Positions 31,238 to 39,158 of a stretch of 42,761 nucleotides of DNA are shown piece after piece. The DNA is from an uncultured Flavobacteriales bacterium (GTDB lineage Bacteria > Bacteroidota > Bacteroidia > Flavobacteriales > BACL11). Where the stretch lies: assembly GCA_905478185.1 (NCBI GenBank), contig CAJQHO010000009.1, positions 1 to 42,761 on the forward strand. The letters run 5' to 3'. A model generated the notes under the pieces. It ran no database searches. It was not told the DNA's origin and was given only the letters and a program-made list of their open reading frames with translations. A program made the position numbers and the translations under genes. Positions within the stretch are counted from its first letter, which is position 1; the number at the start of each line of letters is the position of its first letter.

Positions 31238-32218
31238 ATGACAAATATTTTAATTTTTATTATTGCAATCTTAGTTATTGCAACATTAGTTCAGATTGTT
31301 AGAGTTAGCGAGCTATTATCAGAAATAAAAAATAAGGATGTTAATGAAGTAACCGATAAAGATAATAACACTCAAGGATTATTATTTTTAGTAGTAGGTT
31401 TTGGATTTTTAATTTTTGTTATCTGGCAAATGATAACTTGGAATCATCTTTTATTACCTCCTGCGAGTTCAGTACATGGGACTCAAATTGATTTATTAAT
31501 GAAAGTGTCCATGGGATTAATTATTGTAGTATTTTTTATTACATCACCTTTGCTATTTTATTTTGCATTTAAGTATAGGGGTAAAAAATCTAATAATGCA
31601 TATTTTTTATCACATAATAATAAGCTAGAAGTTGTTTGGACTGTTATTCCTACTATAATACTTACAGGGCTTATTATTTTTGGCTTAAAAACTTGGGATA
31701 ATGCCATGAATGTTCAGGTCACTGAATCAACTAAATTAATTGAAGTTTATGCAAAGCAATATAATTGGACTGCTAGATACTCAGGCCTTGACAATAAATT
31801 AGGTAAAGCAAATTATAAATTAGTTAAAGGGAAAAACACTCTTGGTGTTGACATGTTAGATATCAATTCTGCAGATGATAAAATGGCTAGAGAGGTTCAT
31901 TTAGTAGTTAATGAGCCAGTATTATTAAAGTTTCGTTCTCAGGATGTAATACATTCTGCTTTCTTACCACATTTTAGAGTACAAATGAATTGCGTTCCAG
32001 GAATTACCACTCAATTTGGATTTACCCCTAACAAAACAACTGCTCAAATGAAAGAAAGTGAGGGCGAGGATTTTGAATATGTTTTATTGTGTAATAAGAT
32101 ATGTGGAGCTTCACATTTTAACATGCAAATGAAATTTATTGTTGAAACCCAAGAAGAATATGATATTTGGATTGCTTCTCAGGAGAACTTAGAAAAAAAA
32201 TTATTAACTCAAAAATAA
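31238..32218 (+). CDS. coxB: Cytochrome c oxidase subunit II
   Basis: CuA-carrying subunit that receives electrons from cytochrome c and hands them to subunit I. At 326 residues it has three predicted helices (about 2-22, 47-68, 89-111 and a further one around 132-151), then the cupredoxin domain. The CuA ligands are visible: H239 and C285-x3-C289-x3-H293-x2-M296 in the CNKICGASHFNMQM segment. The position usually holding glutamate between the two cysteines is lysine (K287), a form I associate with Bacteroidota. There is no heme c motif (CxxCH), so it is not a caa3-type fusion. First gene of the oxidase operon, nine bp before coxA. Confidence 0.94.
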   Translation: MTNILIFIIAILVIATLVQIVRVSELLSEIKNKDVNEVTDKDNNTQGLLFLVVGFGFLIFVIWQMITWNHLLLPPASSVHGTQIDLLMKVSMGLIIVVFFITSPLLFYFAFKYRGKKSNNAYFLSHNNKLEVVWTVIPTIILTGLIIFGLKTWDNAMNVQVTESTKLIEVYAKQYNWTARYSGLDNKLGKANYKLVKGKNTLGVDMLDINSADDKMAREVHLVVNEPVLLKFRSQDVIHSAFLPHFRVQMNCVPGITTQFGFTPNKTTAQMKESEGEDFEYVLLCNKICGASHFNMQMKFIVETQEEYDIWIASQENLEKKLLTQK

Positions 32219-32226
32219 TATAAAGG

Positions 32227-33978
32227 ATGTCGGAACATCATAAAGAAAACTTCATTACTAAATACATTTTTAGTATGGATCATAAGATGATTGCAAAGCA
32301 ATTTCTTTTAACTGGAATGTTTATGGCCGTTGTTGGGATGCTGATGTCTGCTATTTTCAGAGTCCAATTGGCTAACCCTGGTGAAACTTCTGTATTATAT
32401 AACTTACTGCCAAGCGCTTGGCTAAATGATGCAGGTGGTTTAAATCCTGATAAATATTTAGCCTTAGTTACTATGCATGGTACAATATTAGTTTTTTGGG
32501 TGCTAACAGCCGGTCTTTCAGGTACATTTGCTAATTTCTTAATACCATTACAAATTGGCGCTAGAGATATGGCTTCTGGATTTTTAAACATGCTTTCTTA
32601 TTGGTTCTTTTTTATCGCTACTGTTGTATTGATGAGTTCATTATTTGTTGAGTCAGGCCCAGCATCTGGTGGTTGGACAATCTACCCCCCACTTTCTGCA
32701 CTGCCACAAGCAATTCCTGGCTCAGGTACTGGTATGACATTATGGTTAATTAGTATAACATTATTTGTTGTTGGCTCATTACTTGGAGGGCTAAATTATA
32801 TAGTTACAATATTAAATTTAAGAACTATTGGAATGACTATGAAACGTCTTCCCCTTACAGTTTGGGCTTTATTAATCACAGCAATACTTGGGGTCCTTTC
32901 ATTTCCAGTTCTTTTATCTTGTGGTTTATTACTAGTTTTTGACAGATCATTTGGTACTAGTTTTTATCTTTCAGATATCATTATTAATGGTGAAATTTTA
33001 CATAATGAAGGAGGGAGTCCTATTTTATTCGAGCATTTATTTTGGTTTTTAGGTCATCCTGAAGTTTACATTATTTTATTACCTGCATTGGGTATTGTTT
33101 CTGAGGTTATTGCTGTAAATTCAAGAAAACCTATTTTTGGATATAAAGCAATGGTTGGTGCGTTATTATTAATTGCATTTTTATCATTTATTGTTTGGGG
33201 ACATCATATGTTTATGACTGGGATGAATCCCTTCCTTGGTTCTGTATTTACATTTACTACTTTACTTATAGCTATACCTTCAGCCGTAAAAGTATTTAAT
33301 TATTTAGCTACTTTATGGAGAGGAAATATTCGTTTCACTCCAGCAATGTTATTTGCTATTGGTACGGTTTCAGCATTTATTACGGGTGGATTAACTGGAA
33401 TTATTTTAGGAGATAGTGCTTTAGATATTAATGTACATGACACTTATTTTGTTGTAGGGCACTTTCATATTGTAATGGGTCTTTCTGCTATATATGGTAT
33501 GTTCGCAGGGGTGTATCATTGGTTCCCTAAAATGTACGGAAGAATGATGAATAAGAATTTAGGATATATACATTTCTGGGGTACTTTTATTTGTGCATAT
33601 GGCGTATTTTTCCCAATGCATTTTTTAGGATTAGCTGGTTTACCAAGAAGATATTACTCTAATTCAGCTTTCCCAATGTTTGATGGGTTATCGGATATTA
33701 ATGCTCTTATTACTTTCTTTGCATTAGCTGGAGCTGTAGTTCAAGTAATTTTTCTTTTTAATTTCTTTTATAGTATATTCAAAGGAACAAAAGCAACTCA
33801 GAATCCATGGAAGTCAAATACTTTAGAGTGGACTACTCCTATAGAAAGAATACATGGTAATTGGCCTGGAGACTTACCAGTTGTAAAACGTTGGGCTTAT
33901 GATTATTCAAAGCCAGGTGCTGATGAAGATTTCATTTTACAAACTGAACCATTAAAAGAGGGAGAGGTAGAGCATTAA
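32227..33978 (+). CDS. coxA: Cytochrome c oxidase subunit I
   Basis: Catalytic heme-copper subunit reducing oxygen to water and pumping protons, with about 12 membrane helices over 583 residues. Ligands recognised: low-spin heme histidine in TMHGTILVF (H84), CuB histidine and cross-linked tyrosine in GHPEVYIILLP (276-281 onwards), CuB HH at 326-327 in WGHHMF, and the two heme histidines in HDTYFVVGHFHIVMG (404-418). The GHPEV glutamate indicates an A1-type oxidase with a D-channel. It follows coxB by eight bp and stops one base before the subunit III gene. Confidence 0.96.
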   Translation: MSEHHKENFITKYIFSMDHKMIAKQFLLTGMFMAVVGMLMSAIFRVQLANPGETSVLYNLLPSAWLNDAGGLNPDKYLALVTMHGTILVFWVLTAGLSGTFANFLIPLQIGARDMASGFLNMLSYWFFFIATVVLMSSLFVESGPASGGWTIYPPLSALPQAIPGSGTGMTLWLISITLFVVGSLLGGLNYIVTILNLRTIGMTMKRLPLTVWALLITAILGVLSFPVLLSCGLLLVFDRSFGTSFYLSDIIINGEILHNEGGSPILFEHLFWFLGHPEVYIILLPALGIVSEVIAVNSRKPIFGYKAMVGALLLIAFLSFIVWGHHMFMTGMNPFLGSVFTFTTLLIAIPSAVKVFNYLATLWRGNIRFTPAMLFAIGTVSAFITGGLTGIILGDSALDINVHDTYFVVGHFHIVMGLSAIYGMFAGVYHWFPKMYGRMMNKNLGYIHFWGTFICAYGVFFPMHFLGLAGLPRRYYSNSAFPMFDGLSDINALITFFALAGAVVQVIFLFNFFYSIFKGTKATQNPWKSNTLEWTTPIERIHGNWPGDLPVVKRWAYDYSKPGADEDFILQTEPLKEGEVEH

Positions 33979-33979
33979 T

Positions 33980-34534
33980 ATGGACATAGCTTTAAGAAAT
34001 ATAGTTAAAAAACAGCTTTTATGGATATCATTAGCTGCAATTTCAATGTTTTTTGCAAGCATGTTATCTGCATTTATAGTTGAAAAAGCTGACGTTGGAA
34101 ATTGGAAAGAATTTATTTTGCCAAATTATTTTGTATTAAGTACTGGGGTTATTATTCTCAGTAGTTTAGTGCTATTCTTTATTAAACCTCAACTTAAAAA
34201 AGAAAAGTCCATATTTGGTTTAGTTTTTACTGTTTTAATTTTAGGAATCCTATTTTCATATTTTCAAATTAAGGGATGGCAGCAATTAACTAATCAAGGC
34301 ATTTATTTAACAGGAGTTGGCAGTAATATATCAGGATCGTTTTTATATATTTTAACTTTAACTCACCTTTTACATCTTGTTGGAGGGATAGTTGGATTAT
34401 GCATAAGCACAATTAAATCAAAACAGAATTTATACTCAATTAATAATTACTTAGGCTTAGAGTTAACAGCTATCTACTGGCATTTTTTAACTGTACTTTG
34501 GGTTGTATTATTTGCGTTTTTAAAATTCTATTAA
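33980..34534 (+). CDS. Cytochrome c oxidase subunit III, short form
   Basis: A 184-residue membrane protein of the heme-copper oxidase subunit III family with five predicted helices. It has the conserved LTLTHLLHLVGGIVGL block and the terminal YWHFLTVLWVVLFAFLKFY motif shared by subunits III. It starts one base after coxA stops. Bacteroidota oxidase clusters commonly carry this short form followed by a longer second subunit III, as here. Subunit III stabilises subunit I and supports proton uptake. Confidence 0.9.
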   Translation: MDIALRNIVKKQLLWISLAAISMFFASMLSAFIVEKADVGNWKEFILPNYFVLSTGVIILSSLVLFFIKPQLKKEKSIFGLVFTVLILGILFSYFQIKGWQQLTNQGIYLTGVGSNISGSFLYILTLTHLLHLVGGIVGLCISTIKSKQNLYSINNYLGLELTAIYWHFLTVLWVVLFAFLKFY

Positions 34535-34551
34535 ATCAATAAATTAAAGCT

Positions 34552-35469
34552 ATGGATGAAGTGTTAGATGAAGCATTAGTAAAAGATCATAAGCCAGCAT
34601 GGAAAGGAGGTGATCAGCCTTATGAAGCAAGTTATGGGAAATTAATGATGTGGTTTTTCTTAATTACGGACACCTTGACATTTTCTGCTTTTTTAGCATC
34701 TTATGGATTTAGTAGATTTAAATATCCAGATATCTGGCCAAACCCTGAAGATGTATTTAGTCACTTCCCATTCTTGCATGGGGAGCATCCACTTTTGTTT
34801 GTTGCCTTAATGACGTTTATTCTTATTATGAGTTCGGTAACAATGGTACTTGCGGTGAATTACGGACATAAAATGCAAAAGAAGAAAGTGATTTTATGGC
34901 TTTCCTTAACTATTGTTGGGGGCGCTATATTCTTAGGGTCTCAAGCATGGGAGTGGGGACATTTTATTCATGGTGATAAAGGAGGGATTAATACTCAAAC
35001 AGAGCATGTAGTACATATTGCTGAAGGAGAGAAATTATCTTCTGTTTACGAATTAATGGGTGCTGATGGACATGATGGGACGCACCATCACTTCACGGTT
35101 GATCAGGTGATAACAAGCTTAGAAGCGAATCCTCAATATAATATTAGAAAAGCAAATAGAATGTATCTTACAAATGAGGACGCAATTGCTTATTTAAGAG
35201 AAAATGCATCTGAAGTATTGTTAGGAGCAAATTTGAAAAATAATGAATACGGACATCCTTTATTTGCGGATTACTTCTTCTTTATTACAGGATTTCATGG
35301 GTTTCATGTATTTTCAGGTGTAATTTTATTAATCATTATTTTAATTAATGTAGTTAAAGGAACTTATGAAAGAAGGGGTCATTATGAAATGGTAGAGAAA
35401 GTAGGACTATACTGGCACTTTGTAGATTTAGTATGGGTATTTGTATTCACATTCTTCTACTTAGTATAA
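34552..35469 (+). CDS. Cytochrome c oxidase subunit III, long form with soluble insert
   Basis: Second subunit III gene, 305 residues. Helices are visible around 30-52, 79-103, 113-135, 239-266 and 284-305, with the family motifs TGFHGFHVFSGVI and YWHFVDLVWVFVF. Between the third and fourth helices lies a hydrophilic stretch of about 100 residues (139-238) with a histidine-rich DGHDGTHHHF patch and no membrane span. This insert is absent from the neighbouring short subunit III. It may contact another respiratory protein or bind metal (inference). It lies 17 bp after the short form. Confidence 0.9.
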   Translation: MDEVLDEALVKDHKPAWKGGDQPYEASYGKLMMWFFLITDTLTFSAFLASYGFSRFKYPDIWPNPEDVFSHFPFLHGEHPLLFVALMTFILIMSSVTMVLAVNYGHKMQKKKVILWLSLTIVGGAIFLGSQAWEWGHFIHGDKGGINTQTEHVVHIAEGEKLSSVYELMGADGHDGTHHHFTVDQVITSLEANPQYNIRKANRMYLTNEDAIAYLRENASEVLLGANLKNNEYGHPLFADYFFFITGFHGFHVFSGVILLIIILINVVKGTYERRGHYEMVEKVGLYWHFVDLVWVFVFTFFYLV

Positions 35470-35487: not shown

Positions 35488-35808
35488 ATGGGAAGTGAAA
35501 CAAAGGGAAATTGGTGGATTTGGAAGGTTTTTTGGATATTATTATTTATTACAGCATTTGAAGTCGCTCTTGGAATAATTAAGCCATCCTTTTTAGTAGA
35601 TACAATCTTTTTAGGCACAAAATTAATAAACCATGTATTTATTATTTTAACTATTATAAAAGCAGCATATATAATCAATCAATTTATGCACTTAGGGCAT
35701 GAAAAAGTCACTTTAAAATGGACAATATTATTGCCTGCACTTATACTAGTGCCATATTTGTTATTCATTCTTTTAAATGAAGGATTCTACACCTATTTGA
35801 AAATTTAG
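35488..35808 (+). CDS. Cytochrome c oxidase subunit IV-like protein
   Basis: A 106-residue protein with three predicted helices (WKVFWILLFITAFEVALGII, then HVFIILTIIKAAYIINQFMHLGHE, then WTILLPALILVPYLLFILL). The order and the INQFMHLGHE segment fit the small bacterial subunit IV (prokaryotic COX4/CtaF type), which helps assemble or stabilise subunit I. It is co-transcribed with the subunit III genes, 18 bp after the long form. Confidence 0.88.
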   Translation: MGSETKGNWWIWKVFWILLFITAFEVALGIIKPSFLVDTIFLGTKLINHVFIILTIIKAAYIINQFMHLGHEKVTLKWTILLPALILVPYLLFILLNEGFYTYLKI

Positions 35809-35821
35809 ATTTTTAAATATT

Positions 35822-36502
35822 ATGAAAATAGAAAAAATAACACTTCTTTTCTTATTGCTGGTTTTACCCGCCATTATGTATTTTTATTTAACTAGGGGGT
35901 ATAATAATTTTATTAAATTAGAGATTATAGGTGAAGCTGATTATAGTATTGATGATTTTAGTTTTATCAATCAAGACAATGATACTATTACAAAGGATAG
36001 TCTCTTAGGATCAATTTATGTTGCAAATTTTTTCTTTACATCTTGCCCTACTATTTGTCCAACAATGACGAGAAATATGTCATATTTACAAGATAAACTT
36101 AGTGTTTACCCTAATATTAGGTTTCTATCTCATACTGTTGATCCTGATAATGATACGCCAGAAAAATTAGTTAAATATGTTGATTTAATGCAACAAAAAA
36201 ATATTAACATTGATTTATCTAATTGGGATTTTGTAACGGGCGATAAAGATAAATTATATGAATCAGCAGCAAACTATTTTGTTAATGCTAGCGTTGATTC
36301 ATTAGCCCCTGGAGGATTTTTACATTCAGAGTATTTTATTTTAATTGACAAACAGGGAAGAGTTAGATCTGGTATTGATATAAATGGAAATGTTGTTGGC
36401 GCATATGATGGCACTAATGAAGTCCAAATGAAGGACCTTATTAATGATATTAATGTTCTAATGGCAGAATACAAAAGACCTTTAAAGGATGCTAAAGATT
36501 AA
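35822..36502 (+). CDS. SCO family copper chaperone
   Basis: SCO1/SenC family protein, anchored by an N-terminal helix (ITLLFLLLVLPAIMYFYL) with a thioredoxin-like domain outside the cytoplasm. It delivers copper to, and reduces, the CuA cysteines of subunit II. The copper site is C-x3-C in FTSCPTICPTM with the distal histidine in FLHSEYFILID. The 226-residue length is normal. Its 3' end overlaps the small CxxC protein gene by 14 bp. Confidence 0.93.
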   Translation: MKIEKITLLFLLLVLPAIMYFYLTRGYNNFIKLEIIGEADYSIDDFSFINQDNDTITKDSLLGSIYVANFFFTSCPTICPTMTRNMSYLQDKLSVYPNIRFLSHTVDPDNDTPEKLVKYVDLMQQKNINIDLSNWDFVTGDKDKLYESAANYFVNASVDSLAPGGFLHSEYFILIDKQGRVRSGIDINGNVVGAYDGTNEVQMKDLINDINVLMAEYKRPLKDAKD

Positions 36503-36719
36503 ATTATTTGTTTTAGTCATCTTAATGACTTTTTTCAATTCTCTCAGCTTTGCTCAGTGCGCAATGTGTAAGGCAGTTGTAGAGGCTAATTTGGAAGCAG
36601 GAGACACTAAAGGCGCAGGTTTAAATGATGGAATTCTGTTTTTAATGTCTATGCCGTATATAGCAGTATTTTTATTTGGAGTGTTTTACTACTTGCAAAA
36701 AAAATCTAAAGTAGCTTGA
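36489..36719 (+). CDS. Small exported CxxC membrane protein in the oxidase assembly cluster
   Basis: A 76-residue protein of unknown function. A signal peptide (MLKIKLFVLVILMTFFNSLSFA) would leave a mature protein beginning QCAMCKAVVEAN, with a C-x2-C pair at its N-terminus. A polar stretch with GAGLNDGILFL follows, then a second span MPYIAVFLFGVFYYL and a basic tail KKSKVA. Overlap with the SCO gene and closeness to cyoE place it in oxidase maturation. A role in copper or thiol handling is plausible but only inferred. Small proteins of this CAMCKA type occur near such clusters in flavobacteria, from memory. Confidence 0.78.
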   Translation: MLKIKLFVLVILMTFFNSLSFAQCAMCKAVVEANLEAGDTKGAGLNDGILFLMSMPYIAVFLFGVFYYLQKKSKVA

Positions 36720-36729
36720 ATCAATTACT

Positions 36730-37620
36730 ATGAACGTATTTAAATACTATGGACAGCTTTTAAAATTCAGGCTATCTATTACTGTTGTTTTTTCTGCAAT
36801 GGTTGGTTACCTTTTAGGAATTGAAAACTTTGTATTTAATGAGTTTATATTTTTGATAGTGGGAGGTTTTTTTGTTACAGGATCCGCAAATGGTTTCAAT
36901 CAAATTCTTGAAAAAGATAAAGATAAATTGATGGAAAGAACTGCTAATAGACCTTTGCCTCAAGGTAATCTTTCCGTATTACAGGCCGTAATTTTTTGCT
37001 CCACAATGGCATTATTAGGTTTATATCTTTTAAACTTTATAAAGCCTCAAGGAAGTTTTTATGCATTTATGTCTAAATCTTCTTTATTTGGGTTAGTTTC
37101 TATCCTGCTCTATGTTCTTTCGTACACTCCTTTAAAGAGAGTTTCAACTATTTCTATCTTTGTGGGAGCTATTCCTGGCGCTATCCCATTTTTATTGGGT
37201 TGGGTAGCTGCTACTGATGATTTTGGATTGGCAGCAGGAATTTTGTTTGCAATTCAGTTTTTTTGGCAATTCCCTCACTTTATTGCTATTGCTTGGGTAC
37301 TTAATGATGAATATAAAAAAGCAGGATTTAAGATGCTTTTTGGGGGCAGGAAGAATACATATCCAGCAGTAATCTCAATTTCCACTTCAGTGTGTATGAC
37401 ACTTATTTCGGTTGTTCCTTTCTTCTGGAGTTATACAGATTTAACTCTTTCAATCTATGCTTTTATTCTGATTTTAATTTTAGGAATATGGTTTACAAAA
37501 AAGTCATTTAATTTGTACAAAGAAACTACTGATGAAAGTGCAAAAAAGTTAATGCTAGCTTCCTTTGCATACCTTCCATTAATGCAAATTATTTATGTTT
37601 TGGATAAGTTCTTTCTCTAA
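36730..37620 (+). CDS. cyoE: Protoheme IX farnesyltransferase (heme O synthase)
   Basis: UbiA-family integral membrane prenyltransferase that adds a farnesyl tail to heme b to make heme O, the precursor of the heme A in subunit I. It has 296 residues and about nine helices. The first aspartate-rich motif appears in NGFNQILEKDKDKLMERTANRPLPQG, and the second loop in AWVLNDEYKKAGFKML. Last gene of the plus-strand arm; it ends in a 4-bp overlap with ctaA, which performs the next reaction and is read from the other strand. Confidence 0.95.
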   Translation: MNVFKYYGQLLKFRLSITVVFSAMVGYLLGIENFVFNEFIFLIVGGFFVTGSANGFNQILEKDKDKLMERTANRPLPQGNLSVLQAVIFCSTMALLGLYLLNFIKPQGSFYAFMSKSSLFGLVSILLYVLSYTPLKRVSTISIFVGAIPGAIPFLLGWVAATDDFGLAAGILFAIQFFWQFPHFIAIAWVLNDEYKKAGFKMLFGGRKNTYPAVISISTSVCMTLISVVPFFWSYTDLTLSIYAFILILILGIWFTKKSFNLYKETTDESAKKLMLASFAYLPLMQIIYVLDKFFL

Positions 37621-38627
37621 GATTTAGAAAAAATAAAGAGAGAATAGGTAGTTGCTGTTAGTAAAAAAAAAGCGCCAATTTGATGTAGAGCTGCAAGCCA
37701 AATAGGAACTACTAAAATCAAAGTAAAAATCCCTAAGAGTGTTTGGAGTAGTACAATCCCTAACAGAAAATTAAGAGACCTTTTCTGATTGTTTACTAAT
37801 TCTAATTTTTGTCCTTTCTTCCAAATGTAAATTACAAAAGCAACTAAAGTTAATGCAAGAATTCTATGAATAAATTGAACTCCATACCTTCCTTCAACAA
37901 AATTTTTCCATAATGGATCAAGTTGATATACAGCATCAGCAATCCAATAGTCTCCCATTTTTGGCCATGTATTAAATCCAATTCCAGCATTTAATCCAGC
38001 TACAAATCCTCCATAAATAATTTGAATAATTATTAATAGCATCAGTATTTTTATAAGACCAAGAAGTACAGTATTGCCACTTCTTTCTTTTGTAAAAATA
38101 AGTGGTAAAACTACCCAAAAGGTAAATGCAAAAGTTAAAAATGCTGTGATTAAATGCAATGCTAATCTGTAATGACTTACATCAGGGTTATTTACTAAGC
38201 CACTTTTTACCATCCACCAACCAATAGCTCCTTGCATAGTTCCCATCAGTAGTAAAATAGAGGTTTGAATAATTAGTTTTTTATTTAATCTTTTCTTAAT
38301 CAGAAAATAAATGAAGGGTATGATAAATACTAAGCCTAATAATCTTCCAATCATTCTGTGTAGATATTCCCAAAAAAAAATATATTTAAATTCAGATAAT
38401 GTACAGTTAAAATTAATTTTTTGGTATTCAGGATATGCCTTATAAAGGTTGAAAGTTTCTTTCCATTCTATTTCATTTAAAGGAGGTATTGCTCCCATAA
38501 ATAAATTCCACTTCACCATTGAAAGTCCAGAATCTGTTAGGCGCGTAATACCACCTATAACTACCATAATAAAGATTAAAGTACATCCAGATAATAACCA
38601 CATTATTATAGATTTATTTTTACTCAT
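37617..38627 (-). CDS. ctaA: Heme A synthase (COX15/CtaA)
   Basis: Converts heme O to heme A by oxidising the C8 methyl group. The 336-residue protein has eight predicted helices and family blocks: GGITRLTDSGLSMVKWN near the N-terminus, EYLHRMIGRLLGL with a heme-binding histidine, GLVNNPDVSHYRLALHL and VQFIHRILAL. It directly follows the DUF420 gene on the minus strand (ATG and stop are adjacent) and converges on cyoE, so heme O and heme A synthases lie tail to tail. Confidence 0.95.
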   Translation of the reverse strand: MSKNKSIIMWLLSGCTLIFIMVVIGGITRLTDSGLSMVKWNLFMGAIPPLNEIEWKETFNLYKAYPEYQKINFNCTLSEFKYIFFWEYLHRMIGRLLGLVFIIPFIYFLIKKRLNKKLIIQTSILLLMGTMQGAIGWWMVKSGLVNNPDVSHYRLALHLITAFLTFAFTFWVVLPLIFTKERSGNTVLLGLIKILMLLIIIQIIYGGFVAGLNAGIGFNTWPKMGDYWIADAVYQLDPLWKNFVEGRYGVQFIHRILALTLVAFVIYIWKKGQKLELVNNQKRSLNFLLGIVLLQTLLGIFTLILVVPIWLAALHQIGAFFLLTATTYSLFIFSKS

Positions 38628-39158
38628 TTAATAATATGGACTCATAAATAAGTAAACCATCACACCTGTTATAGCTACATACATCCAAATAGGGAATGTC
38701 CATTTTACTATGTTTTTATGTTTCTCAAACTCTCCTGTAAGTCCTCTGTACATGGAAAATAATGCTAACGGTAAGACAGCAATTGATAATAGAATATGAG
38801 AAATCAGAATAAAACGATAAGTGATTATATATTCTCCCAAATATTTAGTTGTAGCATGGTCCAAAACTAATTTTGAAAAAACATAGGAAAGTAAAAATAC
38901 TGATGACAACACAAAAGCAGTTATCATTGATATTTTATGCAATTTACTCTTCTTATTTTTTATTAGAACAAAACCACAGAATAGCAAGATAGCGGTTGTT
39001 CCATTTAATATTGCATGAAAAAGAGGAAGAAAGCTATAATCACTCTCGCTATTAATATGCAAATAATTTGAAAATATCATAAGTGCTGCAACTGCGATTG
39101 GTATAACAATTGATAATGTGATAATAATTGGCACAAAAACGGAATCTTTCTTTTTCAT
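38628..39158 (-). CDS. DUF420 (CtaM-like) membrane protein
   Basis: A 176-residue protein with five predicted helices. The pattern LPLFHAILNGTTAILLFCGFVLIKNKKSKLHK, followed by YRFILISHILLSIAVLPLALFSMYRGL and HKNIVKWTFPIWMYVAITGVMVYLF, is that of DUF420 (each block split by loops). Relatives, such as CtaM of Staphylococcus, are needed for heme A-containing oxidase activity. Position directly upstream of ctaA agrees. It abuts aspS upstream (one base). Confidence 0.9.
   Translation of the reverse strand: MKKKDSVFVPIIITLSIVIPIAVAALMIFSNYLHINSESDYSFLPLFHAILNGTTAILLFCGFVLIKNKKSKLHKISMITAFVLSSVFLLSYVFSKLVLDHATTKYLGEYIITYRFILISHILLSIAVLPLALFSMYRGLTGEFEKHKNIVKWTFPIWMYVAITGVMVYLFMSPYY

Follow-up and report, generated by a model that had tools for sequence, protein, structure and literature searches.

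Introduction

The CuA site of cytochrome oxidase is served by several proteins in addition to Sco. In other phyla PCuAC, CtaK or TlpA also act on this site, as outlined in a source that covers these factors (PMC9145763). The same account presents PCuAC as a soluble cupredoxin-like protein with His and Met residues and CtaK as a lipoprotein with His and Met, both being small extracytoplasmic proteins that act beside Sco (PMC9145763). DUF420/CtaM has been proposed, as summarised for Bacillus subtilis, to export the copper that Sco uses (PMC13344008).

Here we describe a small CxxC protein encoded in the window, that is, the whole 42,761-nucleotide stretch of DNA analysed, which is contig C9 of the 1.66-Mb draft genome of an uncultured Flavobacteriales bacterium. 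Like PCuAC and CtaK the protein would be small and extracytoplasmic, but unlike them it is a CxxC peptide with a predicted C-terminal anchor and without a conserved His, and neither the PCuAC profile (PF04314) nor its His/Met copper motif was found in it. With Cox11 (CtaG_Cox11, PF04442) it would share a single membrane anchor, an outer-side cysteine pair and a link to the A-type (heme-a/CuA) oxidase; Cox11 differs, in the description available in PMC6696091, by its N-terminal anchor, its soluble domain and its CxC motif. The Cox11 profile (PF04442) was unmatched, as the small CxxC protein matches zero Pfam families at E ≤ 1. Nor was the SCO1/SenC profile (PF02630), a thioredoxin fold with CxxxC and His, found in it, its structural model being two helices. 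Thiol reductants of the TlpA/ResA type have a thioredoxin fold. The small CxxC protein could likewise keep the cysteines of SCO or CuA reduced, in the manner of the roles sketched for TlpA and ResA (PMC9145763). Unlike these reductants, it would expose only ~25 residues outside the membrane. CcmH/CycL, which acts on cytochrome c, combines a signal peptide, a CxxC motif and a C-terminal membrane helix with a larger helical domain. The first three elements are laid out as in the small CxxC protein, a likeness that is in part predicted; the latter protein is smaller, and the window's copy is without a Pfam match.

Results

The small CxxC gene is embedded in an A-type oxidase operon

The gene at 36489–36719 (+ strand) is a genuine open reading frame that starts with ATG and encodes 76 residues. 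As the initial annotation had proposed, it lies between SCO and heme O synthase: it overlaps the end of the SCO1/SenC copper chaperone gene (35822–36502, +; CPTIC motif; Pfam PF02630, 3.6e-28) by 14 bases in a different frame, and the cyoE/ctaB heme O synthase gene (36730–37620, +; Pfam UbiA, 2.6e-47, with the heme O synthase identity taken from context) starts 10 bases after its end. The operon runs from coxB, encoding cytochrome c oxidase subunit II (31238–32218, +; Pfam COX2_TM and COX2, with the CuA motif CNKIC in the sequence), through coxA, encoding subunit I (32227–33978, +; Pfam COX1, 4.6e-141), a short (33980–34534, +; Pfam COX3, 1.3e-8) and a long (34552–35469, +; Pfam COX3, 2.7e-12) COX3-like subunit and a prokaryotic COX4-like subunit (35488–35808, +; Pfam COX4_pro, 2.7e-12) to SCO, the small CxxC gene and cyoE. 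The opposite strand carries ctaA/COX15, for heme A synthase (37617–38627, −; Pfam PF02628, 8.4e-101), and a DUF420 gene of the CtaM family (38628–39158, −; Pfam PF04238, 1.9e-37). This gene content bears out the earlier view that the small gene is embedded among oxidase maturation genes.

A quick reading of the translations placed outward-facing cysteine pairs in CoxB (CNKIC) and SCO (CPTIC), and a single Cys, not a pair, in the first loop of CtaA. The CuA and SCO pairs are the obvious candidate partners within the operon.

Two features of the structural genes merit mention in their own right. The adjacent COX3-like genes (33980–35469) are of unequal length, and both are matched in most related cox operons. 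The CuA motif of the window's subunit II (31238–32218) reads CNKIC where CxExC is usual; among 62 partly redundant coxB loci CNKIC is the most frequent form (26 loci). We take the residue changed from E to K to be the CuA ligand that binds through its backbone carbonyl. One CuA ligand is indeed a backbone carbonyl, as described in PMC6696091, so the change is possibly neutral.

The predicted mature N-terminus carries an invariant cysteine pair

Read from its N-terminus, the protein has a hydrophobic stretch, the segment A|QCAMCKAVVE, a Gly-rich linker, a second hydrophobic segment and a basic tail. The first 22 residues (36489–36554, +) form a predicted signal peptide, hydrophobic and with S-F-A before the cut, and residues 23–27 (36555–36569, +) would then be the mature N-terminus, Q-C-A-M-C. 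A membrane anchor is predicted at about residues 48–70 (36630–36698, +), with conserved I, L, M and P-Y and followed by the basic tail; reading, conservation of the P and an AlphaFold2 model point to it. The model (56 sequences, mean pLDDT 80.6, pTM 0.40) consists of a helix (residues 2–36), a loop and a second helix (residues 45–75).

The initial annotation had made its proposal hinge on conservation of the cysteines, and both are invariant. Together with the preceding Gln (Q22, C23 and C26 in profile numbering) they are present in all 144 distinct profile matches, which come from 156 of the 161 scanned loci. Of the two search patterns used for the genome_contigs set one includes both cysteines, so this set is partly selected for them; Q-C-x-x-C was also found in 59 of 59 distinct rows retrieved by overall similarity, independently of the motif, in the near-genome and phylum searches. 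Other profile positions are nearly as constant, with P55 in 143/143 rows, G47 in 142/144, I48 in 141/143 and N45 in 139/144. In 142 of 143 rows the Gln follows A, S or G, a pattern that fits cleavage by signal peptidase I and the Bacteroidetes Q-rule. Under this rule a new N-terminal Gln becomes pyroglutamate after cleavage, which for inner-membrane proteins is yet to be tested according to the relevant part of PMC5837995. The small CxxC protein is thus probably exported, and its basic C-terminus suggests an N-outside topology. Reading and conservation therefore both support the export, the C-terminal anchor and the CxxC at the mature N-terminus that had been predicted from the window.

The Met of CxMC is less constant (132 of 144 rows, hence not universal), and outside the class other residues take its place, as in CPAC, CPNC, CPSC and CPLC. 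The second Cys is followed by K in 90, R in 37, T in 13 and S in 2 of the 144 rows, these being the four most frequent residues and covering all but two rows, and by K in the window; the CxxCH heme site of c-type cytochromes was not found in the small CxxC protein. A bacterial lipobox, with the modified Cys at +1, was likewise not found, as Gln directly precedes the first Cys in all 144 distinct matches of profile A1; in the divergent out-of-class forms A precedes the Cys, so this test for a lipoprotein is less clear there. The family alignment contains no conserved His.

The family is undescribed and the gene is under purifying selection

Over the first 70 codons, comparison with five close relatives gave dN/dS values of ~0.06–0.15 (dN 0.012–0.124, dS 0.21–1.07), which indicate that the small CxxC gene is under purifying selection. 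Matches at E ≤ 0.01 were obtained in 33 of 40 near genomes, comprising 31 genomes besides the window's own and a 345-kb genome, G039, whose match (E 0.004) is a chance one in a stretch that encodes no such protein. At the same threshold profile A1 matched 72 of 296 phylum genomes, the window's own counted and at least two (G233 and G291) doubtful; the G233 match falls inside a longer protein of a different kind. At least 566 confirmed stretches were found in genome_contigs, and the best 80 of these were analysed. Among the matches listed, the nearest named relatives are mostly metagenome assemblies of Flavobacteriales and Cryomorphaceae. The family is therefore larger and tighter than is visible from the window alone.

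Neither Pfam at E ≤ 1 nor NCBIfam at E ≤ 10 contains a family that matches the window's protein, and a sequence search of the PDB returned two ovomucoid matches only (E 0.62 and 1.2). For 38 family members Pfam gave weak, scattered matches, the best at 8.3e-4 among the 25 of 41 families listed. The two family members queried against plasmid records had zero matches. Reading revealed no fusion of the small gene to SCO or to DUF420, and long open frames suggestive of fusion look like out-of-frame extensions. The titles and abstract openings of open-licence PMC papers yielded none on this protein, a query by its motif letters returned only an unrelated public-health match, and no mutant data were found in the open-licence PMC literature searched. 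By these comparisons the small CxxC membrane proteins form an undescribed family, with no convincing Pfam, NCBIfam or PDB family to which they would belong.

The small CxxC gene tracks the A-type oxidase, not SCO

The 296 genomes of the phylum draw include 73 from the class of the window, its own genome among them. Of these 73, 65 have the small CxxC gene and eight lack it, of which six are from family f6 and two from f25. This distribution coincides with that of the CuA oxidase: the gene occurs in 65/65 class genomes with a CuA oxidase and 0/8 without one, the latter group representing two families only and perhaps two losses. The subunit II profile with CuA (PF00116) was found in 64 of the 65 gene-positive and none of the eight gene-negative genomes; in the one genome it missed, G090, coxB adjoins coxA (locus L189). 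Each of the 62 loci in which coxB was matched has a CuA motif; this set is partly redundant, excludes the window and includes loci with and without the small gene. By contrast, SCO is found in 72 of the 73 class genomes, including seven of the eight without the small gene. Thus, of the co-occurrence with coxAB and SCO that had been put forward as a check, the part that concerns the CuA oxidase holds and the part that concerns SCO does not.

The gene-negative families are informative. All six f6 genomes have NCBIfam ccoN above the cut-off, and thus cbb3 oxidases, and all six have SCO; the classification covers one COX1-family gene per genome and, for G302, G314 and G029, additional COX1 matches, with five long frames that score like cbb3 genes and one weak match of G318 lying outside it. 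None of the classified extras reaches the CtaD cut-off, and those of G314 (C9) and G029 (C1) match zero NCBIfam families. In the f25 genomes a COX1 match is absent. Because cbb3 oxidases and SCO occur without it in the f6 genomes, the small gene follows the A-type oxidase and not heme-copper oxidases or SCO generally. The additional match of G302 belongs to a divergent cbb3-like pair (L218:1666–4420), consisting of a 583-aa ccoN-like and a 331-aa ccoO-like protein, both well below the NCBIfam cut-offs.

These data bear on whether the protein serves thiol redox chemistry or copper stress in general, its gene being no more than a companion of the oxidase operon. Several clients could, in principle, be served by a short CxxC peptide, but the gene is missing from 8/8 class genomes without an A-type oxidase and is kept with the oxidase even where the two are unlinked, and we regard this explanation as very unlikely.

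Outside the class the picture changes. With a broader profile, A3, homologs were detected in 14 out-of-class genomes (E ≤ 2.1e-4), in all of which the gene lies on the same contig and strand as a CuA subunit II match, 3.4–6.2 kb downstream; five of these genomes (G056, G110, G080, G284 and G096) supplied rows of the A3 query alignment, that of G096 (L148) having been picked partly by position, and nine are independent. The divergent out-of-class forms, ACPACK, ACPNCK, ACPSCS and ACPLCQ, are encoded at or near the end of cox operons, several directly 3' of DUF420. The remaining 141 of 155 out-of-class CuA genomes are without a homolog at E ≤ 1e-3, matches of A3 between 1e-3 and 0.1 in further genomes being counted as no match. 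Eleven out-of-class CuA neighbourhoods without a profile match (L198–L207 and L216, with L198 meeting its contig end ~3 kb past coxB) contain no small exported CxxC ORF by a hydrophobicity filter. A-type oxidases can thus be built without the small CxxC protein, and the 141 genomes speak against a general, required role as a CuA or CuB factor. The pattern expected of a maturation factor, joint occurrence with the A-type oxidase and linkage to it, is found within the lineage of the window's class only.

The gene usually adjoins SCO and/or DUF420 and persists where unlinked

Among the best 80 of at least 566 loci, a set biased to near relatives because it was chosen as best-scoring, SCO lies within 1.2 kb on the same strand in 74, of which 41 also have DUF420. 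One further locus, at a contig end, has DUF420 only, and five have neither (L070, at a contig end, L100, L101, L109 and L111). In 29 loci from the even phylum draw (L033–L061, flanks of ~1.5 kb) DUF420 is likewise placed in 25 and SCO too in 18 of these, while L036, L049 and L061 have neither within these flanks and L037 has an adjoining but convergent DUF420. The usual SCO position beside DUF420 in L037 (2301–2813, reverse-complemented numbering) is occupied by a 170-aa protein with zero cysteines. In eleven loci of families f18 and f20 (L150–L158, L162 and L163) the window's oxidase genes are unmatched nearby and the small gene is still kept, and the same genes are likewise unmatched near L100, L101, L109 and L111. 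In f41 the small gene comes after a COX4-like match. The small CxxC gene thus usually lies beside SCO and/or DUF420/CtaM, yet persists where it is unlinked. Some relatives also have a second, weak SCO-like match directly 5' of SCO (L143:2914–3528, and the first 320 bases of L029 and L031).

Gene placement also bears on whether the protein is a structural subunit, namely a small part of the aa3 oxidase or of an alternative complex III supercomplex in which the cysteine pair makes a structural disulfide or a dimer contact. The strict co-occurrence with the A-type oxidase (65/65 vs 0/8) would be expected of a subunit, and the conserved N, G, I, L, M and P-Y in or before the membrane helix suggest a fixed membrane partner. 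However, in most linked loci the gene is grouped with SCO and DUF420 and not with the subunit genes, several families keep it away from the operon, and the extreme N-terminus would be an odd site for a structural disulfide; we consider a subunit role improbable.

Most known copper helpers seem to be missing from the class

Cox11 and PCuAC were each found in 0/73 class genomes and Caa3_CtaG in 1/73 (G070), where it adjoins a second cox operon, a divergent one (L161) that lacks the small CxxC gene. The bacteria of the class therefore seem to be without most known copper helpers for the CuA oxidase. Over the whole phylum draw the first and the last of these factors are also nearly absent (above cut-off, Cox11 in 3/296 and Caa3_CtaG in 1/296), and phylum-wide complementarity between them and the small gene was rejected on this ground. 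Two sub-threshold Cox11/Caa3_CtaG matches come from G137 and G170, CuA genomes that lack the small gene. Four genomes of families f34 and f41 (G056, G110, G080 and G284) have PCuAC and the small gene together, so the small CxxC protein is not a strict replacement for PCuAC. One Cox11 match above cut-off, in G134 (C20:141917–142039; L217), lies at a contig end in a genome without a listed subunit II match and is possibly contamination or a sign of a missed operon.

We also asked whether the small CxxC protein instead serves CuB insertion, as a minimal counterpart of Cox11 that would dimerise and load subunit I of the A-type oxidase with Cu(I). The class-wide counts are in keeping with such a role, as is G056, whose second, divergent cox operon (L160) includes Cox11 and lacks the small gene, which lies in the other cox operon (L144). 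Cox11 likewise has a single anchor and binds copper by cysteines across a dimer, as set out in PMC6696091. Yet the cbb3 oxidases of the f6 genomes have CuB without CuA and these genomes lack the small gene, the ligands of CuB are His and not thiols, and complementarity fails at the scale of the phylum, since none of the 141 homolog-free out-of-class CuA genomes has Cox11 or Caa3_CtaG above the curated cut-off. A role in CuB insertion is, on this evidence, unlikely.

Discussion

The best of the readings that we weighed is that the small CxxC protein is a dedicated maturation factor of the Bacteroidota heme-a/CuA oxidase, which we advance tentatively, at somewhat less than an even chance. Cleavage of the predicted signal peptide would leave a mature chain of ~54 residues that starts with (pyro)Glu-Cys-x-Met-Cys on the periplasmic side and is tethered in the membrane by one C-terminal helix. 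A dithiol would thereby be displayed at the membrane surface near subunit II, SCO and DUF420/CtaM. This dithiol may accept either electrons or Cu(I), the latter possibly through the four thiolates of a dimer, and may pass them on to SCO, to the CuA cysteine pair of subunit II or to both. Together with SCO, and with DUF420 in most lineages, the protein would thus serve in copper delivery to the CuA site or in reduction of its thiols.

A more specific form of the maturation-factor reading takes the protein to be a minimal copper carrier, a peptide of ~54 residues that would bind Cu(I) through its N-terminal pyroglutamyl-Cys-x-Met-Cys, probably between the two chains of a dimer. With DUF420/CtaM and SCO it would make up the copper-insertion module of the Bacteroidia A-type oxidase, replacing PCuAC, Cox11 and Caa3_CtaG. 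We regard this more specific form as possible but doubtful. If true, it would represent an undescribed type of copper carrier.

In Flavobacterium johnsoniae, gene-deletion tools exist, the respiratory chain includes ACIII-aa3 and a bd oxidase is predicted to bypass it, as reported in the relevant part of PMC8552683. These tools, and the predicted bypass, make deletion of the small gene feasible. For oxidase metallation in the Bacteroidota, the small CxxC protein is thus a concrete candidate factor, one that can be deleted and mutated in a tractable laboratory species.
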